Assembly (NCBI GenBank): GCA_015232535.1
Contig: JADFZM010000009.1
Coordinates: 1-35,820, forward strand
From: Candidatus Omnitrophota bacterium
GTDB taxonomy: Bacteria; Omnitrophota; Gorgyraeia; Zapsychrales; Zapsychraceae
Direction of reading: 5' to 3'
Length of the DNA stretch: 35,820 nt
Numbering within the stretch: the stretch's first letter is position 1; the number at the start of each line of letters is the position of its first letter. Below the pieces are notes generated by a model. That model ran no database searches. It worked only from the letters and a program-made list of their open reading frames with translations, and was not told the DNA's origin. The translations under genes were made by a program, and so were the position numbers. Shown here one piece after another: positions 9,715-34,921 of the stretch.

Positions 9715-11457
9715 ATGGCACATTTCAGATTAGGCGAAGTTTTAATAAAAGAAGGCCTTATTACCGAGAAACAGCTCAATAACGCTATTGAGTTCCAGAA
9801 GAAAGAAAAAGGCCGCATCGGGGAAATCCTCATCAAGCTGGGATTCATAACTGAGGAAAACATGATTTCCGCCCTCGGGTCACAGCTTAACATACCCTAT
9901 TATTCCTCCGAGAACGCCGAGCTTCTAAAGCCGCAACCCGATCAAAAGCTGGATAAATTAATACCCTCTGATTTTGCAACTAAGAATATAGTACTTCCTT
10001 TGTCTAAGAATATGAACTCTATTACCTGCGCGGTAAACGACCCCTTAGACCTTATGATGATCGACAACCTAAAGCGGCTGACATCATGCGAGATTAATTT
10101 GGTTATCGCGACCAAAGCCGCTATCCAAAAAGCCATAAATAACTTTTATTTCGCGAATAAAAAAGAAGACCTTGCCGGTACTTCAATGCTTGATCAGGCG
10201 GTCGAAAGCTCATACGCGCAAAAATCGATTGACCAGATGATAACCTCCACCAAAGAGAAACATGAAGCCACCGAGCTAAGCTTAGATAAGCTTATCGAGA
10301 AAGCCGGGGAGGCTCCGGTCATTAAGCTGGTCGACCTGATCATACGCCAAGCCATCGACGAGCGGGCCAGCGATATTCACATCGAGCCTTTTGACAACAA
10401 GATCAATTTGCGTTACCGTATCGACGGGCATTTGTACGAAATCCCGCCGCCAGCGCCGCATTTGCATTTGCCAATCGTTTCGCGTATAAAAATATTATCC
10501 AAGCTCGATATCGCCGAAAAAAGGCTTCCCCAGGACGGTGCTATTGTCGCTAAGCTCGAGGACAGAACTGTCGACTTGCGAATTTCAACGATTCCTACCG
10601 TATGGGGAGAAAAGGTCGTCATGCGTATCTTAGACAAAGCGGCCGTGCCTTTGGAATTAAGCCAGCTGGGGTTCGACGCCAAACAGATTGATACGATAAG
10701 AAAATCACTCAGCTCGCCTTACGGCCTGTTTTACGTCACCGGGCCGACTGGAAGCGGAAAATCGACCACCCTTTACGCCGCCGTGAGTGAAACGAAAGAC
10801 CCTTCAAAGAACATACTAACGGTCGAAGACCCCGTAGAATATAAGCTAGACGGCATAAACCAAGTAGCTATCAAACCCGATATCGGGCTGACCTTTGCCG
10901 CGGCTCTAAGGGCGTTCTTGCGCCAAGACCCCGACATCATAATGGTCGGAGAAACCCGCGACATAGAAACCGCGTCGATATGCGTTCGCGCCGCCTTAAC
11001 AGGGCACTTTGTCTTATCCACCTTGCACACAAACGATGCCGCCTCCGCCATAACCAGGCTGATTGATATCGGCATCCCTAATTACCTATTGACCCCGTCT
11101 TTGACCATGATCCTGGCCCAGAGGCTGGCAAGAAGGCTCTGTTCTAAGTGCAAAGAACCATACGAGCCTTCTGCCGAACAGCACGGAGGTATAAAGTTTA
11201 AAAGCGACCTAATATACCGGTCGAAAGGATGCGACCTTTGCAAAAACACCGGGTACAAAGGCCGAATAGTTGTCTCTGAAGTTTTATGTATCGATGATGA
11301 GATAAAAAGTATCCTTTCAAGAAACGGCAGTTACACGGAAATAAAAGACTGTGCCAGAAAAAACGGAATGCTGACAATCTTTGAGGCCGGGGTGAAACTG
11401 GTAGAAGAGGGGATAACCTCTTTCGAGGAAGTATGCCGTGTCAGCGTCGATCAATAA
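9715..11457 (+). CDS. pilB: PilB/GspE-family secretion ATPase
   Basis: This 580-residue protein is a hexameric ATPase that drives pilus extension. It begins with an MshEN/GspE N-terminal domain (about 1-150; FRLGEVLIKEGLITEKQLNNA), followed by the N2 domain with RASDIHIEP and the motor domain. Walker A GPTGSGKST is at about 343-351, the Walker B region DPDIIMVGETRD at about 405-416, and the histidine box LTGHFVLSTLHTND follows. A tetracysteine zinc site (C476/C479, C506/C509) is typical of extension ATPases and absent from PilT retraction ATPases. No PilT gene is in this window. It is followed by pilC after 21 bp. Confidence 0.94.
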   Translation: MAHFRLGEVLIKEGLITEKQLNNAIEFQKKEKGRIGEILIKLGFITEENMISALGSQLNIPYYSSENAELLKPQPDQKLDKLIPSDFATKNIVLPLSKNMNSITCAVNDPLDLMMIDNLKRLTSCEINLVIATKAAIQKAINNFYFANKKEDLAGTSMLDQAVESSYAQKSIDQMITSTKEKHEATELSLDKLIEKAGEAPVIKLVDLIIRQAIDERASDIHIEPFDNKINLRYRIDGHLYEIPPPAPHLHLPIVSRIKILSKLDIAEKRLPQDGAIVAKLEDRTVDLRISTIPTVWGEKVVMRILDKAAVPLELSQLGFDAKQIDTIRKSLSSPYGLFYVTGPTGSGKSTTLYAAVSETKDPSKNILTVEDPVEYKLDGINQVAIKPDIGLTFAAALRAFLRQDPDIIMVGETRDIETASICVRAALTGHFVLSTLHTNDAASAITRLIDIGIPNYLLTPSLTMILAQRLARRLCSKCKEPYEPSAEQHGGIKFKSDLIYRSKGCDLCKNTGYKGRIVVSEVLCIDDEIKSILSRNGSYTEIKDCARKNGMLTIFEAGVKLVEEGITSFEEVCRVSVDQ

Positions 11458-11478: not shown

Positions 11479-12717
11479 TTGCCGAAATATTCTTATGTAG
11501 TAAAAGACAAAGAAGGCCGCTCTTTTAAGAACATCACCGATGCCGTAAACAAAAAAATCGTCATCGATAAGCTACAGAAACAGGGTTATTACATAATCAG
11601 CGTCAGACAGATCACCGTCGGCAAATCAGCCGACTCCATCCGGATATCAAAAAAAAAGCAGTTTACCCATAAAAAGGCCACACTAGGAGATTTGCTCGGA
11701 TTCGCCCGTCAGTTTGCAACCATGCTCGAGTCAGGCATTACGATCACCCGGGCTTTATCGGTAATCCAAACCCAGGTCGAAAGCGAAGAGCTTCACAAAG
11801 TAATGACCAAAGTAAAAAACGACGTCGAACAGGGCCGGTCTTTAAGCCAAGCCCTTTCGGCGCACCCGAAAGTTTTCAATCAATTTTGGATAAGCCTTTC
11901 GGAAGTAGGAGAAGCCTCCGGCACGATCCCTATGGTTTTTAACAAACTTACCTTTTATCTTGAACAGCAAGAAAAATTCAAATCAGTTGTAATCTCCGGC
12001 ATCATATACCCCTCAATACTATTCATCGTCGCCACCGGCGCGGTCGCATTCTTTGCCCTCTTCGTCGGTCCTCGGTTCCAGGATATCTTTAAATCAATGA
12101 ATGTACCGCTGCCCGGGATAACAATTTTCTTGCTGGGTTTATTTAATTTTATAAAAACTTACTCATTGCATATTATAGGAGCAGGTTTTGTTGCCTTCAT
12201 CTTCCTAAAGCTTTATATTAAGACGTACTACGGCAGGATAAACTATGAAAAGTTCCTCTTTAACCTTCCAATATTCGGCGACATTATAAAGCTAATCGTA
12301 ATCGAGCGGTTCTGTTCGCAAATGGCGATACTCATAGATTCCGGCGTGCCTATACTCTATGCTTTGGACATTGCCGAGCGTTTAGTCAGCAACAACACCT
12401 GCGCTTTGATCGTCTCCGAGATCAAAGAAGGAGTAAAACGAGGCGAGGTATTAGTCGCCCCTATGGAACGCAGCGGTTTTTTCACTCCGATGACAATACA
12501 GATGATACAAGTCGGGGAGGAAACCGGCGAACTAAGCAAAATGTTCAAACATATCTCCGAGTTCTATCAAGCCCATGTATCGACTTTTATGCAAAGATTT
12601 TCTACAATCGTTGAACCTATCATGCTGGTTTTCATGGGAGGAGTAATAGGGACAATAGTTATCGCTATGTTTCTTCCGATGTTCAACATCGCCCAACTCG
12701 GAGGAGCGGGGGGATAA
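11479..12717 (+). CDS. pilC: PilC/GspF-family inner-membrane platform protein
   Basis: The 412-residue protein has the two tandem T2SSF domains of PilC/GspF (about 70-195 and 270-400), each followed by membrane segments (about 170-195, 213-240 and 375-400). Key stretches are FARQFATMLESGITITRAL and the paired FCSQMAILIDSGVPILYAL. It is the platform on which PilB rotates to add pilin subunits. Translation starts at TTG: an AAGGA sequence lies 8 nt upstream and the N-terminal PKYSYVVKDKEG matches the family start. The gene ends the ATPase/platform pair and precedes the pilin leader region. Confidence 0.93.
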   Translation: MPKYSYVVKDKEGRSFKNITDAVNKKIVIDKLQKQGYYIISVRQITVGKSADSIRISKKKQFTHKKATLGDLLGFARQFATMLESGITITRALSVIQTQVESEELHKVMTKVKNDVEQGRSLSQALSAHPKVFNQFWISLSEVGEASGTIPMVFNKLTFYLEQQEKFKSVVISGIIYPSILFIVATGAVAFFALFVGPRFQDIFKSMNVPLPGITIFLLGLFNFIKTYSLHIIGAGFVAFIFLKLYIKTYYGRINYEKFLFNLPIFGDIIKLIVIERFCSQMAILIDSGVPILYALDIAERLVSNNTCALIVSEIKEGVKRGEVLVAPMERSGFFTPMTIQMIQVGEETGELSKMFKHISEFYQAHVSTFMQRFSTIVEPIMLVFMGGVIGTIVIAMFLPMFNIAQLGGAGG

Positions 12718-12831
12718 ACAGGGGCGCGTAAAAATATATAATAATGCTTTATTTATTTACTTTTTTAAGGTAAATTATTGGCTATAGGATGTTTACATAA
12801 GAGTTAAGTTATCGTTAGTTCTTTGGCATTT

Positions 12832-12841
12832 TGCTTATATT
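12832..12841 (+). promoter_or_regulatory. Possible -10 element for the pilin leader
   Basis: TATATT at 12836-12841 has a TG dinucleotide 2 nt upstream, similar to an extended -10 element, but there is no convincing -35 box. Transcription from it would start near 12846-12848, at the foot of the first long stem of the leader. Confidence 0.35.
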
Positions 12842-12845
12842 TAGC

Positions 12846-12970
12846 CCGTTTGACAACTGCTCTCTTATATGTTATATCTTGAATAGAGAGTTGCAGCTTT
12901 GGTCAAACGGTTATTGATATCAGTAAACCACATAAAGATGTGTGGCACGGAAGTTAAAGTCAATAACTTC
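12846..12970 (+). ncRNA. Structured 5' leader upstream of the major pilin gene
   Basis: The 355-bp gap between pilC and pilA contains no gene but strong RNA structure. A perfect 9-bp stem CCGTTTGAC/GTCAAACGG (12846-12854 with 12902-12910) encloses an inner CTCTCT/AGAGAG stem. Next, an 8-bp stem GTTATTGA/TCAATAAC (12910-12917 with 12960-12967) encloses a hairpin CCACAT..ATGTGTGG. A second hairpin, GAAGTTA/TAACTTC (12950-12956 with 12964-12970), uses the same TAAC bases, so the two cannot form together. An intrinsic terminator follows. This layout resembles an attenuator or riboswitch. Ligand and class are unknown. Confidence 0.55.
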
Positions 12971-12993
12971 AACAAAACAAAAAAAGGTTTGTG

Positions 12994-13026
12994 CCTATTC
13001 TACGCGGTGTGGAATAGGTTTTTTTT
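12994..13026 (+). terminator. Intrinsic terminator 46 bp before the pilin start codon
   Basis: CCTATTC (12994-13000) pairs with GAATAGG (13012-13018) and is followed by eight T (13019-13026). It ends only 46 bp before the pilA ATG, with no room for a promoter in between. It may close the pilC operon, or it may control read-through into pilA. GTGCC at 12991-12995 can pair with GGCAC at 12944-12948, which would occupy the foot of this stem. Confidence 0.8.
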
Positions 13027-13072
13027 ATTGCGAACCTTTGGTTAAGCAACCAAAAAAAAGAAGGAGCAAAAG

Positions 13073-13489
13073 ATGAAAAGTAGAAAAAGCGGTTTTACCT
13101 TATTGGAAATCATCATAGTCATCATAATCGTCGGGGTATTAGCTTCGCTCGCCTTGCCGCGGTTCTTCTCGACGGTTGAGTTCTCAAGAAGTACCGAAGC
13201 CTTGACTGCTATGACGGCGATCCGCCAATCGCTGGAAAGATGCTACAATACTAATAATGCTTCATACGAAAGATGTGGTCTGTTCAATAACCTCGACCTT
13301 GAAAATCCCACAACTTCTCCCAATTCTCACTTTAACTATATCTTCAATGGCATGACCAACAATACATACACAATTGAAGCACAAAGAAACGCCCGAGAGG
13401 GCGGGACCATTACCGATTGGATAAGATTATCGCAGGATGTGAACGGTGTAACTAGAAGTGGAACCGGAGCATTTAAAGGAATCAAATAG
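13073..13489 (+). CDS. pilA: Major type IV pilin / pseudopilin
   Basis: The protein has 138 residues. A six-residue-plus-Gly leader (MKSRKSG) precedes the canonical prepilin site G|FTLLE, with Glu at +5, and the hydrophobic helix IIIVIIIVGVLASLALPRFF. The C-terminal domain has two Cys (C61 and C68 approximately) that could form a disulphide, and a short beta region. It is either the major pilin PilA or the GspG-like major pseudopilin. It is judged to be major because it is first in the pilin cluster, has a strong GAAGGAG ribosome binding site and is set apart by its own leader and a 3' hairpin. Confidence 0.88.
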   Translation: MKSRKSGFTLLEIIIVIIIVGVLASLALPRFFSTVEFSRSTEALTAMTAIRQSLERCYNTNNASYERCGLFNNLDLENPTTSPNSHFNYIFNGMTNNTYTIEAQRNAREGGTITDWIRLSQDVNGVTRSGTGAFKGIK

Positions 13490-29907: not shown

Positions 29908-31800
29908 ATGTTTGAATCGTTAGAATTATTCGTCGGCCAGGTGGCCGATCTCGAGATAATTCTTAACAATCTAACGGCATTTAACTACATCCACGCCAAA
30001 AAGTCCTTTCAGGAAGGCGAATTCTCCCTGCGCGGAGGAATTTTAGACATTTTTCCGGCAGGCTTCGATTCGCCAGTCCGTATCGATTTTGAAGACGACA
30101 AAATCCGCTCGATAGCCAGCATAAACATAAAAAGCGGGAAATCTGTATGGCAGCACAATATCGTCATCATCCTCCCTTTTAAGCCGTCGAAAAAAGAAGT
30201 CTTCAGCGAAGATATCCCCTTAAGTAATTTCGTCGATATAAAAAAAGGCGATTATGTAGTGCATAACCACCACGGTATCGGCCGTTATCTGGGGATCACC
30301 GACTTCGAGATCAACGACACAAAAAAAGAACATTTAATTATTGAATACAAAGAAAACGATAAACTCTTTGTCCCCAAACATGACATCCACCTTATACAAA
30401 AATTTATCAGCTTCAACAAAAAACCTCCCAAAATATACAAGCTTGGGAGCAAAGAATGGAAAAGGATAAAAACCCTTATCCAGAAAAAGATACAGAGGTT
30501 TGCCGCCGAGCTTCTGCACACCCAGGCTTTGCGCGAAACCCTCAGAGGGTTCGCTTTCTCAAAAGACTCGGATTGGCAAAAAGAATTTGAACGTTCTTTT
30601 CCTTTCGAAGAAACCCCGGACCAAAAAAAAGCCGTGGAGGAAACTAAAAAAGACATGGAATCGGACCGCCCGATGGACAGGCTTATTTGCGGTGATGTCG
30701 GATACGGAAAGACAGAAGTCGCTTTTCGGGCGATCTTTAAGGCGGTCATGGACAACAAACAAGTTGCGGTTTTAGTGCCCACGACGATCCTTGCCGAGCA
30801 GCATTATTATAATTTACGTAAACGCGTCAAAAACTTCCCCGTCAATGTCGCAATGCTCAGCCGGTTTCGCACCAAAAGCGAGCAAAATAAAACAGTCATA
30901 GACCTGTCAGAAGGGAAGGTGGATGTGATAATCGGGACCCACCGTATCTTATCCGACGATATTTCTTTCAAAGACTTAGGGCTGATAATCATCGACGAGG
31001 AACAGCGTTTCGGAGTAAAAGCCAAGGAAAAACTCAAGCGCTTTCGGCTGCTCTCGGACGTCCTTACCCTTAGCGCAACCCCGATACCAAGGACTCTCCA
31101 TCTGGCATTGACCGGGGCCAAGGATATGTCGATAATCTCAACGCCGCCGCAAAACAGGCTTCCGGTTAAAACAATAATCATCGAATTCGACGAATCGATC
31201 ATCAAATCTGCGCTCGAAAGAGAACTAAAAAGAAAGGGCCAAGTATTCTTTTTGCATAATCGCATTGAAGATATCGAACAAATTGCTAGAATAATTAAGA
31301 GGCTCTCTGGGGACGCCCGTGTTTCTGTCGGCCACGGGCAAATGCCGGGAAAAATGCTGGAAGAAATAATGCTGGAATTCCTTACCGGGAAAGTAGATAT
31401 TCTTGTTTGCACAACAATAATCGAATCCGGAATCGATATCCCCAATGCGAACACCCTGATTGTCAACCGTGCCGAAACTTTCGGATTGTCCGACCTTCAC
31501 CAGTTAAGAGGAAGGGTTGGCCGGTTTGACCGCAGCGCATACGCTTATTTTATCGTGCCTTCTCGGAGCCTTCTATCCGCCGAGTCGAAACACCGCATCG
31601 AAGCTATTGAAAAATACAGCGAGCTCGGGTCAGGGTTCCATATCGCCTTTGAGGACATGCAGCTTCGCGGAGCGGGGAACCTCTTAGGAGAAGAGCAGCA
31701 CGGCTACATAACAGCTATCGGATTCGACTTATATTGCCGGATGCTAAAAGAATCTGTTGAAAACCTTAAAAAGAATAAATTAGTTTTAACCGAAGGATAA
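29908..31800 (+). CDS. mfd: Shortened transcription-repair coupling factor Mfd
   Basis: The protein has 630 residues where Mfd usually has about 1,100. It opens in the middle of the UvrB-like domain 1b (GEFSLRGGILDIFP at about 37-50), passes directly to the RNA-polymerase-interacting domain (GDYVVHNHHGIGRYLGI at about 114-130), and contains the full SF2 motor: DVGYGKTEVAFRA, DEEQRFG, ATPIPRTL, and HQLRGRVGR. It ends at FDLYCRMLKESVENLKKN, so the autoinhibitory domain 7 is missing, as are domains 1a, 2 and 3 with the UvrA contact. Both flanking genes are close (12 and 4 bp) and intact, so there is no sign of assembly loss. It may still displace stalled polymerase. Confidence 0.92.
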   Translation: MFESLELFVGQVADLEIILNNLTAFNYIHAKKSFQEGEFSLRGGILDIFPAGFDSPVRIDFEDDKIRSIASINIKSGKSVWQHNIVIILPFKPSKKEVFSEDIPLSNFVDIKKGDYVVHNHHGIGRYLGITDFEINDTKKEHLIIEYKENDKLFVPKHDIHLIQKFISFNKKPPKIYKLGSKEWKRIKTLIQKKIQRFAAELLHTQALRETLRGFAFSKDSDWQKEFERSFPFEETPDQKKAVEETKKDMESDRPMDRLICGDVGYGKTEVAFRAIFKAVMDNKQVAVLVPTTILAEQHYYNLRKRVKNFPVNVAMLSRFRTKSEQNKTVIDLSEGKVDVIIGTHRILSDDISFKDLGLIIIDEEQRFGVKAKEKLKRFRLLSDVLTLSATPIPRTLHLALTGAKDMSIISTPPQNRLPVKTIIIEFDESIIKSALERELKRKGQVFFLHNRIEDIEQIARIIKRLSGDARVSVGHGQMPGKMLEEIMLEFLTGKVDILVCTTIIESGIDIPNANTLIVNRAETFGLSDLHQLRGRVGRFDRSAYAYFIVPSRSLLSAESKHRIEAIEKYSELGSGFHIAFEDMQLRGAGNLLGEEQHGYITAIGFDLYCRMLKESVENLKKNKLVLTEG

Positions 31801-34516: not shown

Positions 34517-34921
34517 TTAAGTGCTGTCCCAACCCCGAAACCAGTGCTCAACAAGCTTCTTTTTGTCCAAGGCAAAAGCGAAGGAAAGAAGCAACTCCTG
34601 ATTCTCGGGTGTCATATTAGTAAAATGAACTCCCGTAGAATATCTTGCCTTTTCACGCTTTGACCAGCAAACATATCCGTCCACCTCAAAAGCTTGATCT
34701 TCGGAAAGAAAAACTTTAAGATGGACTTTCTGGTTTGTTATTACTTCTTTATTACTCTCGAGGCAGGCACCAGCGCAGCTCATATCACGGGTAAAAGCTT
34801 CGCGGTATAGATCAGCAGGGTCAAGGCAATGAAACATTACACGGTTCTTTACCTCCCAGCGGGGTAAATACCTTCGGTCTGACGCATTCGGTTTGGGTTT
34901 TTCATCAAAATAAGGCGTCAT
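34517..34921 (-). CDS. PilZ-domain protein, probable cyclic di-GMP binder
   Basis: The 134-residue protein consists of one PilZ domain. The c-di-GMP motifs are RxxxR (R18-YLP-R22, in RRYLPRWEV) and DxSxxG (DMSCAG, near residue 46), both complete. VHFTNMTPE near the end is also typical. A GGAG ribosome binding site lies 6 nt before the ATG. It is the only confident gene on the minus strand, and it stands convergent to rsmA. It may regulate the pilus cluster about 20 kb away, which is inference. The leader is unusual (see the hairpin upstream). Confidence 0.93.
   Translation of the reverse strand: MTPYFDEKPKPNASDRRYLPRWEVKNRVMFHCLDPADLYREAFTRDMSCAGACLESNKEVITNQKVHLKVFLSEDQAFEVDGYVCWSKREKARYSTGVHFTNMTPENQELLLSFAFALDKKKLVEHWFRGWDST

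Follow-up and report, generated by a model that had tools for sequence, protein, structure and literature searches.

The window, a stretch of 35,820 nucleotides from a Candidatus Omnitrophota bacterium, carries pilC (11479-12717) and, downstream of it, pilA, and the gap between the two genes holds a putative promoter, several complementary segments and an intrinsic terminator. The main features are as follows:

12850-12878, + strand: putative pilA promoter, with TTGACA at 12850-12855, a 17-nt spacer and an extended -10 element, TG-T-TATATC, at 12870-12878
12950-12956 and 12964-12970, + strand: alternative stem GAAGTTA/TAACTTC, 7 bp, mutually exclusive with the 8-bp stem called P1 below
12988-13026, + strand: terminator with its 5' foot; foot TTTGTGCC at 12988-12995, hairpin at 12993-13019, U-run to 13026; -14.7 kcal/mol
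13062-13066, + strand: Shine-Dalgarno sequence AGGAG, 6 nt ahead of the ATG at 13073
13073-13489, + strand: pilA, a type IV pilin-like protein of 138 aa (Pfam N_methyl 2.8e-7, ComP_DUS 1.5e-8)

The pilA orthologues of relatives adjoin pilC, and AAGGAG recurs upstream of them. The terminator is the sole terminator-like site found in 12700-13100 (shuffles 0.1) and is as clear as the initial annotation of this leader had made it out to be; the 46 bp counted there between the terminator and the ATG (13027-13072) are confirmed. We also judge it right that a leader RNA with a terminator precedes the pilin gene, and that pilA transcripts must cross this terminator. The leader had been listed from 12846, a start that precedes the conserved promoter; we infer a transcription start near 12885, and the first 40 nt or so are probably untranscribed. 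An inverted repeat, CCGTTTGAC (12846-12854) / GTCAAACGG (12902-12910), flanks the promoter. With the conserved promoter lying at 12850-12878, the transcript probably does not contain the whole of this large 5' palindrome (12846-12910). A consensus promoter scan omitted the promoter because its final -10 base is C; TTGACA-N17-TATAC(A/C), mostly with an upstream TATGTT or similar, lies 5' of the aptamer in most pilC-pilA gaps of relatives. A conserved GTAGAA at the transcript start was considered as an antiterminator and set aside: it persists where the terminator differs, and is probably a feature of the initiation site.

Competing stems in the leader

All of the stem pairs described in the initial annotation are present in the window. 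The 8-bp stem formed by GTTATTGA (12910-12917) and TCAATAAC (12960-12967) has TAAC (12964-12967) in common with the GAAGTTA/TAACTTC stem, and GGCAC (12944-12948) is complementary to GTGCC (12991-12995) at the foot of the terminator. Predicted folding exceeds that of shuffled sequences for 12840-13030 (z -4.7) and for 12905-12975 (z -3.1). When the 100-nt leader was shuffled 300 times, 17 of the resulting sequences contained a perfect 8-bp stem, so such a stem alone is not rare; it gains weight because of its homology to P1 of the relatives.

The two exclusive stems had been read as switch-like. The P1 state is predicted at -33.8 kcal/mol and the GAAGTTA/TAACTTC state at -35.1 kcal/mol, a gap of 1.3 kcal/mol, and neither stem contacts the terminator. 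The complete 11-bp terminator is present in both predicted states, and the supposed switch is thus uncoupled from termination. The letters of GGCAC and GTGCC do pair, as had been claimed, but too weakly to open the terminator: a fold forced to contain this pairing is about 5 kcal/mol less stable and retains 8 bp of the terminator stem. As far as the predicted structures go, no signal would be coupled to the terminator. An alternative antiterminator in the nascent fold, GGTCAAAC/GTTTGTGCC, was set aside; its overlap reaches the terminator foot only, and it has no counterpart in the sister species (G001).

Riboswitches between pilC and pilA in related genomes

The pilC and pilA genes adjoin each other in many related genomes. 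The named relatives are all Candidatus Omnitrophota or Omnitrophica, except for one Planctomycetales, one 'bacterium' and one titled Candidatus Zapsychrus exili. The Rfam models for the c-di-GMP-I riboswitch (GEMM-I, RF01051) and its variant c-di-GMP-I-GGC (RF03167) gave 17 matches above cut-off, in 16 of the 20 pilC-pilA loci given for relatives, with scores of 42-64 bits for intact aptamers. From 5' to 3', these gaps contain TTGACA-17-TATAC, P1, GGTAAAC-P2-GG(A/G)CACAAAGCTA, P3, AGCCAGTTGCC and P1', then the U8 terminator shared with the window, CCTATTCTACG..GTGGAATAGG-U(n), and AAGGAG-ATG. The P2 loops are mostly GTAA, GTGA or GCAA, and an AGCCAG block is invariant in nine aligned aptamers. 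A covariance model (R1), built from eight pilA leaders and a ninth leader of the window genome itself (L109), matches 22 of 43 pilC loci in a further collection that overlaps with the first genome set, always directly downstream of pilC. Riboswitches of the c-di-GMP-I type sit between pilC and pilA across the Omnitrophota.

The faint resemblance to the GEMM-I core remarked on in the initial annotation reflects common descent: the same gap holds GEMM-I in relatives. The further suggestion made there, a cyclic-dinucleotide riboswitch class unrelated to GEMM-I, we regard as extremely improbable. Its appeal lies in two competing stems beside a terminator with no Rfam match, but the leaders in the same gap of relatives are homologous to GEMM-I and of the standard c-di-GMP-I type, and the window's own form is unconserved, occurring in no other of 81 genomes of the order. 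Covariation across relatives, on which the suggestion had been staked, is found for the ancestral riboswitch and not for a new class.

Several Omnitrophota c-di-GMP-I aptamers contain inserted hairpins, both in pilC-pilA leaders (L034, L044, L058 and L059) and among riboswitches of the window genome (L114, L115, L117 and L118). A few places of insertion recur: in P3 the hairpins follow AAAGCTA, in the core they fall inside GGAC^GCAAAG, and others lie in the P2 loop. The hairpins are possibly mobile palindromes tolerated inside the riboswitch. In one relative (G023), two pilA-like genes follow each other (L012, at 464 and 1518 of the oriented locus); each of them has a c-di-GMP-I riboswitch to itself, with the same terminator, and a third pilA copy beside pilC (L054) has no riboswitch.

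Probable remains of the aptamer in the window

The covariance search against Rfam that the initial annotation had put forward as a check gave no RF01051 or RF03167 match in 12700-13100, even at an E-value of 10, and the leader thus stays below the gathering threshold. Matches to manA-II, the greA leader and other Rfam families at 12929-13025 were discarded; they reflect an A-rich stretch and the terminator, with scores of 22.7 and 18.4 bits where the cut-offs are 100 and 60. The best match to R1 in the whole 35.8-kb window, both strands included, is at 12908-12983; it is weak, with a score of 14.2 bits and an E-value of 0.14 for the window and 0.0014 for the gap. We used a reading anchored on P1; a MAFFT alignment of the window with the relatives misplaces P1'. 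The parts assigned to the ancestral aptamer are:

12910-12967, + strand: P1 helix, GTTATTGA with TCAATAAC
12922-12948, + strand: remnant of the aptamer 5' half, with the AGTAAAC core at 12922-12928, a P2-like hairpin and GGCAC, aligned to GGTAAAC-P2-GG(A/G)CAC of the relatives
12949-12960, + strand: 5' strand of the former P3, GGAAGTTAAAG(T), with P1' directly after it

The window has the P1 helix that closes c-di-GMP-I riboswitches (RF01051). Its GTTATTG stands 5 nt ahead of (A/G)GTAAAC with the same letters and spacing as in four relatives (L034, L035, L039 and L044), each of which has the matching 3' strand CAATA (CAATAAC in the window); the pairs of P1 vary in other relatives, as in ATTATTG/CGATAAT of L055. 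The P2-like hairpin, CCACATA/TGTGTGG (12928-12934/12939-12945), has 7 bp and the loop AAGA, so that the GNRA tetraloop of P2, which in this riboswitch class docks into P3, is absent, and both arms differ from those of relatives. The joint that follows, GGCAC-gGAAGtTAAAG, aligns with GGCAC-AAAGcTAAAG of L043. Absent from the window leader, when aligned to relatives, are the inner arm and 3' strand of P3 (..TAGCCAGTTGC, ending AGCCAGTTGC) and the AGCCAG block, and the distance from core to P1' is about 40 nt, compared with 62-237 nt in relatives; the P3 deletion is read from one fragmented assembly of 210 contigs. The ligand contacts in the Vc2 aptamer are G20, A47 and C92 (PMC4744006). In the window the equivalent of G20 is kept (12923), that of A47 is perhaps kept (12951-12952) and that of C92 is T (12960) in the P1-anchored alignment, the latter two positions being uncertain because of the P3 deletion.

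The leader therefore resembles c-di-GMP-I riboswitches of both Rfam types in its position, the letters and spacing of P1, the GTAAAC core, the P2-like hairpin, the GGCAC-AAG-TAAAG joint and the terminator-type platform before a pilin gene. It is unlike them in the loss of P3, of the AGCCAG 3' strand and of the P2 GNRA loop, in having no Rfam match, and in an antiterminator complementarity at chance level. The R1 score is weak by itself, so the case for homology draws on position, promoter, P1, core and terminator taken together.

Complementarity between P2 and the terminator

The window terminator is matched at 78-89% identity in related genomes (E<=0.01), and among relatives its 5' arm is unusually conserved for a terminator, likely because it is complementary to the P2 3' strand and the adjoining core. 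The duplex between this strand and the terminator beats shuffled sequences in 18 of the 19 relatives, where no more than 6 of 200 shuffles equal it, and its mean over all 19 is -18.8 kcal/mol; L058 has an intact aptamer without the complementarity. Across 17 leaders, eleven pairs of the duplex are 92.5% standard, and at most 52% when the strands are slid. Three pairs have changed on both sides, for example from GUA/UAC to GCA/UGC in L046 and L059, although many leaders share ancestry, so that these counts do not represent independent changes. In only 13 of the 19 relatives is the duplex better with the leader's own partner strand than with swapped ones, and the antiterminator occupancy estimated by folding is mixed, exceeding 0.5 in 8 of 19.

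In the window the corresponding duplex reaches -13.1 kcal/mol. As 17 of 200 shuffles do equally well, this is no better than chance and not what an OFF-switch antiterminator would display. The duplex consists of GGCACGGA/TTTGTGCC plus TGTGT/ACGCG, with GGCAC/GTGCC as its core, and has a predicted occupancy of 0.04. These values bear on whether a reduced, P3-less derivative of the c-di-GMP-I riboswitch might still sense its ligand, with P1 alternating with a rebuilt GAAGTTA/TAACTTC stem and GGCACGGA/UUUGUGCC acting as a weak antiterminator. Two near-isoenergetic states are indeed predicted and a residual duplex exists, but the terminator is touched by neither stem and the duplex is neither better than chance nor appreciably occupied. 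The leader also retains the G ahead of TAAAC that corresponds to G20, a ligand contact, but P3, the receptor side and the GNRA loop, all parts of the Vc2 fold (PMC4744006), are gone, and the form occurs in no second genome. We consider this reading very unlikely; that such a minimal descendant still switches pilA by the P1/GAAGTTA-TAACTTC alternation and GGCACGGA/UUUGUGCC, possibly with a changed ligand, is more improbable again. If the P3-less form did bind the ligand, the requirements of the class would need revision.

The sister species and the genomic setting

The comparison within the genus covers two species. In the sister species the aptamer is gone from both pilA leaders: the one on contig C7 has the promoter and the terminator (89% identical), and the one beside pilC has lost the terminator as well. 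Searching with the window leader, we found the P3-less form in no other of the 81 genomes of the order, the other genomes matching the terminator part only. The pattern is one of decay, and not of the conservation of a new device. At L062 (3504-4230, - strand) the second pilA of the sister genome lies behind minor-pilin genes, with a leader that has promoter and terminator and no aptamer; a scrap in this leader, GCAGCCGG, may be a trace of the 3' strand of P3.

The survival of the terminator without an aptamer on contig C7 would also suit a plain attenuator or insulator, in which a constitutive terminator keeps pilA low and control is exerted on the DNA through the inverted repeat that brackets the promoter. 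A related repeat, CCATTTGA..TCAAATGG, brackets the matching stretch of the sister's pilC-linked leader with one pair changed on both sides, but this amounts to two leaders, the C7 leader has no such repeat, repeats of 8-9 bp at 40-50 bp are fairly frequent by chance, and we identified no regulator. We regard this reading as unlikely. The repeat in the sister genome is at about 210-264 of L063 (- strand), and its one pair change is compensatory; the repeat around the promoter could serve as an operator.

In the window genome, 11 c-di-GMP-I riboswitches score above cut-off and GGDEF is matched five times; one of these riboswitches (L109) precedes another pilin and has the same kind of terminator. 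MshEN and PilZ domains commonly bind c-di-GMP. Two likely c-di-GMP protein receptors are encoded in the window: an adjoining pilus ATPase with an MshEN domain (9715-11457) and a PilZ protein (34517-34921, - strand). The pilus may still respond to c-di-GMP through protein even if the leader RNA does not. The window also encodes, at 29908-31800, an Mfd-like protein of only 630 aa. It has UvrB_inter, CarD/RID and helicase domains but seems to lack both the N-terminal part and the C-terminal TRCF domain.

Discussion

We propose, with a probability of roughly 0.8, that this leader derives by decay from a c-di-GMP-I (GEMM-I) riboswitch. The ancestor, which is intact at this locus in many Omnitrophota, would have been an OFF switch. 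When no ligand is bound, an antiterminator would form in it between GUAAGGGUAGGACACAA, made up of the P2 3' strand and the core that follows, and UUGUGCCUAUUCUAC, the terminator's foot and 5' arm, and pilA would be read. With c-di-GMP, P2 and P3 would lock into the aptamer, the terminator would fold and pilA would be off; in the proposed OFF logic of the relatives, the ligand would hold P2 and leave the terminator free. In the window genome, P3 and the 3' strand appear to have been deleted and the arms and loop of P2 replaced, with the antiterminator shrunk to GGCAC/GUGCC and a few weak flanking pairs. Ligand sensing is probably gone, the terminator would form by default, and pilA would be expressed from transcripts that start at the conserved promoter (12850-12878) and read through the terminator. 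Homology, synteny, the missing parts and the complementarity in relatives, with its loss in the window, are direct observations, from which the ligand, the OFF logic, the loss of binding and the read-through are inferred. It is odd for a working terminator to persist once the switch is lost, unless the cell tolerates lower expression.

Sensors of cGAMP carry an A variant at the position equivalent to G20. The relatives, by our reading, carry G there, and in this and in their opposite proposed logic they are unlike the Geobacter metallireducens pilM riboswitch, a GEMM-Ib ON switch for cGAMP (PMC9262584), with which they share a GEMM-type RNA and a terminator ahead of type IV pilus genes. In their OFF logic they would resemble Cd1 of Clostridioides difficile, a c-di-GMP-I OFF switch in which the ligand-bound aptamer coexists with the terminator and the ligand-free RNA forms an antiterminator (PMC9262584); compared with Cd1, the antiterminator strand in the Omnitrophota leaders would be the P2 3' arm and core, as read from the sequence. 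Control of a pilin leader by cyclic di-GMP is shared with Cdi-2-4, which lies before C. difficile pilA1 but is a c-di-GMP-II riboswitch, an unrelated aptamer class, and an ON switch (PMC6200980).

The locus would thus be a case of a riboswitch coming apart, readable through its relatives: the aptamer is broken, the promoter and terminator are in place, and the sister species has gone further in the same direction. Of greater use, as a by-product, are the intact relatives. The Omnitrophota are an almost uncultured phylum, and the literature collection searched contained nothing on riboswitches in it. For these relatives the letters of the leaders by themselves predict that c-di-GMP shuts off pilA by freeing the terminator from the P2 strand.
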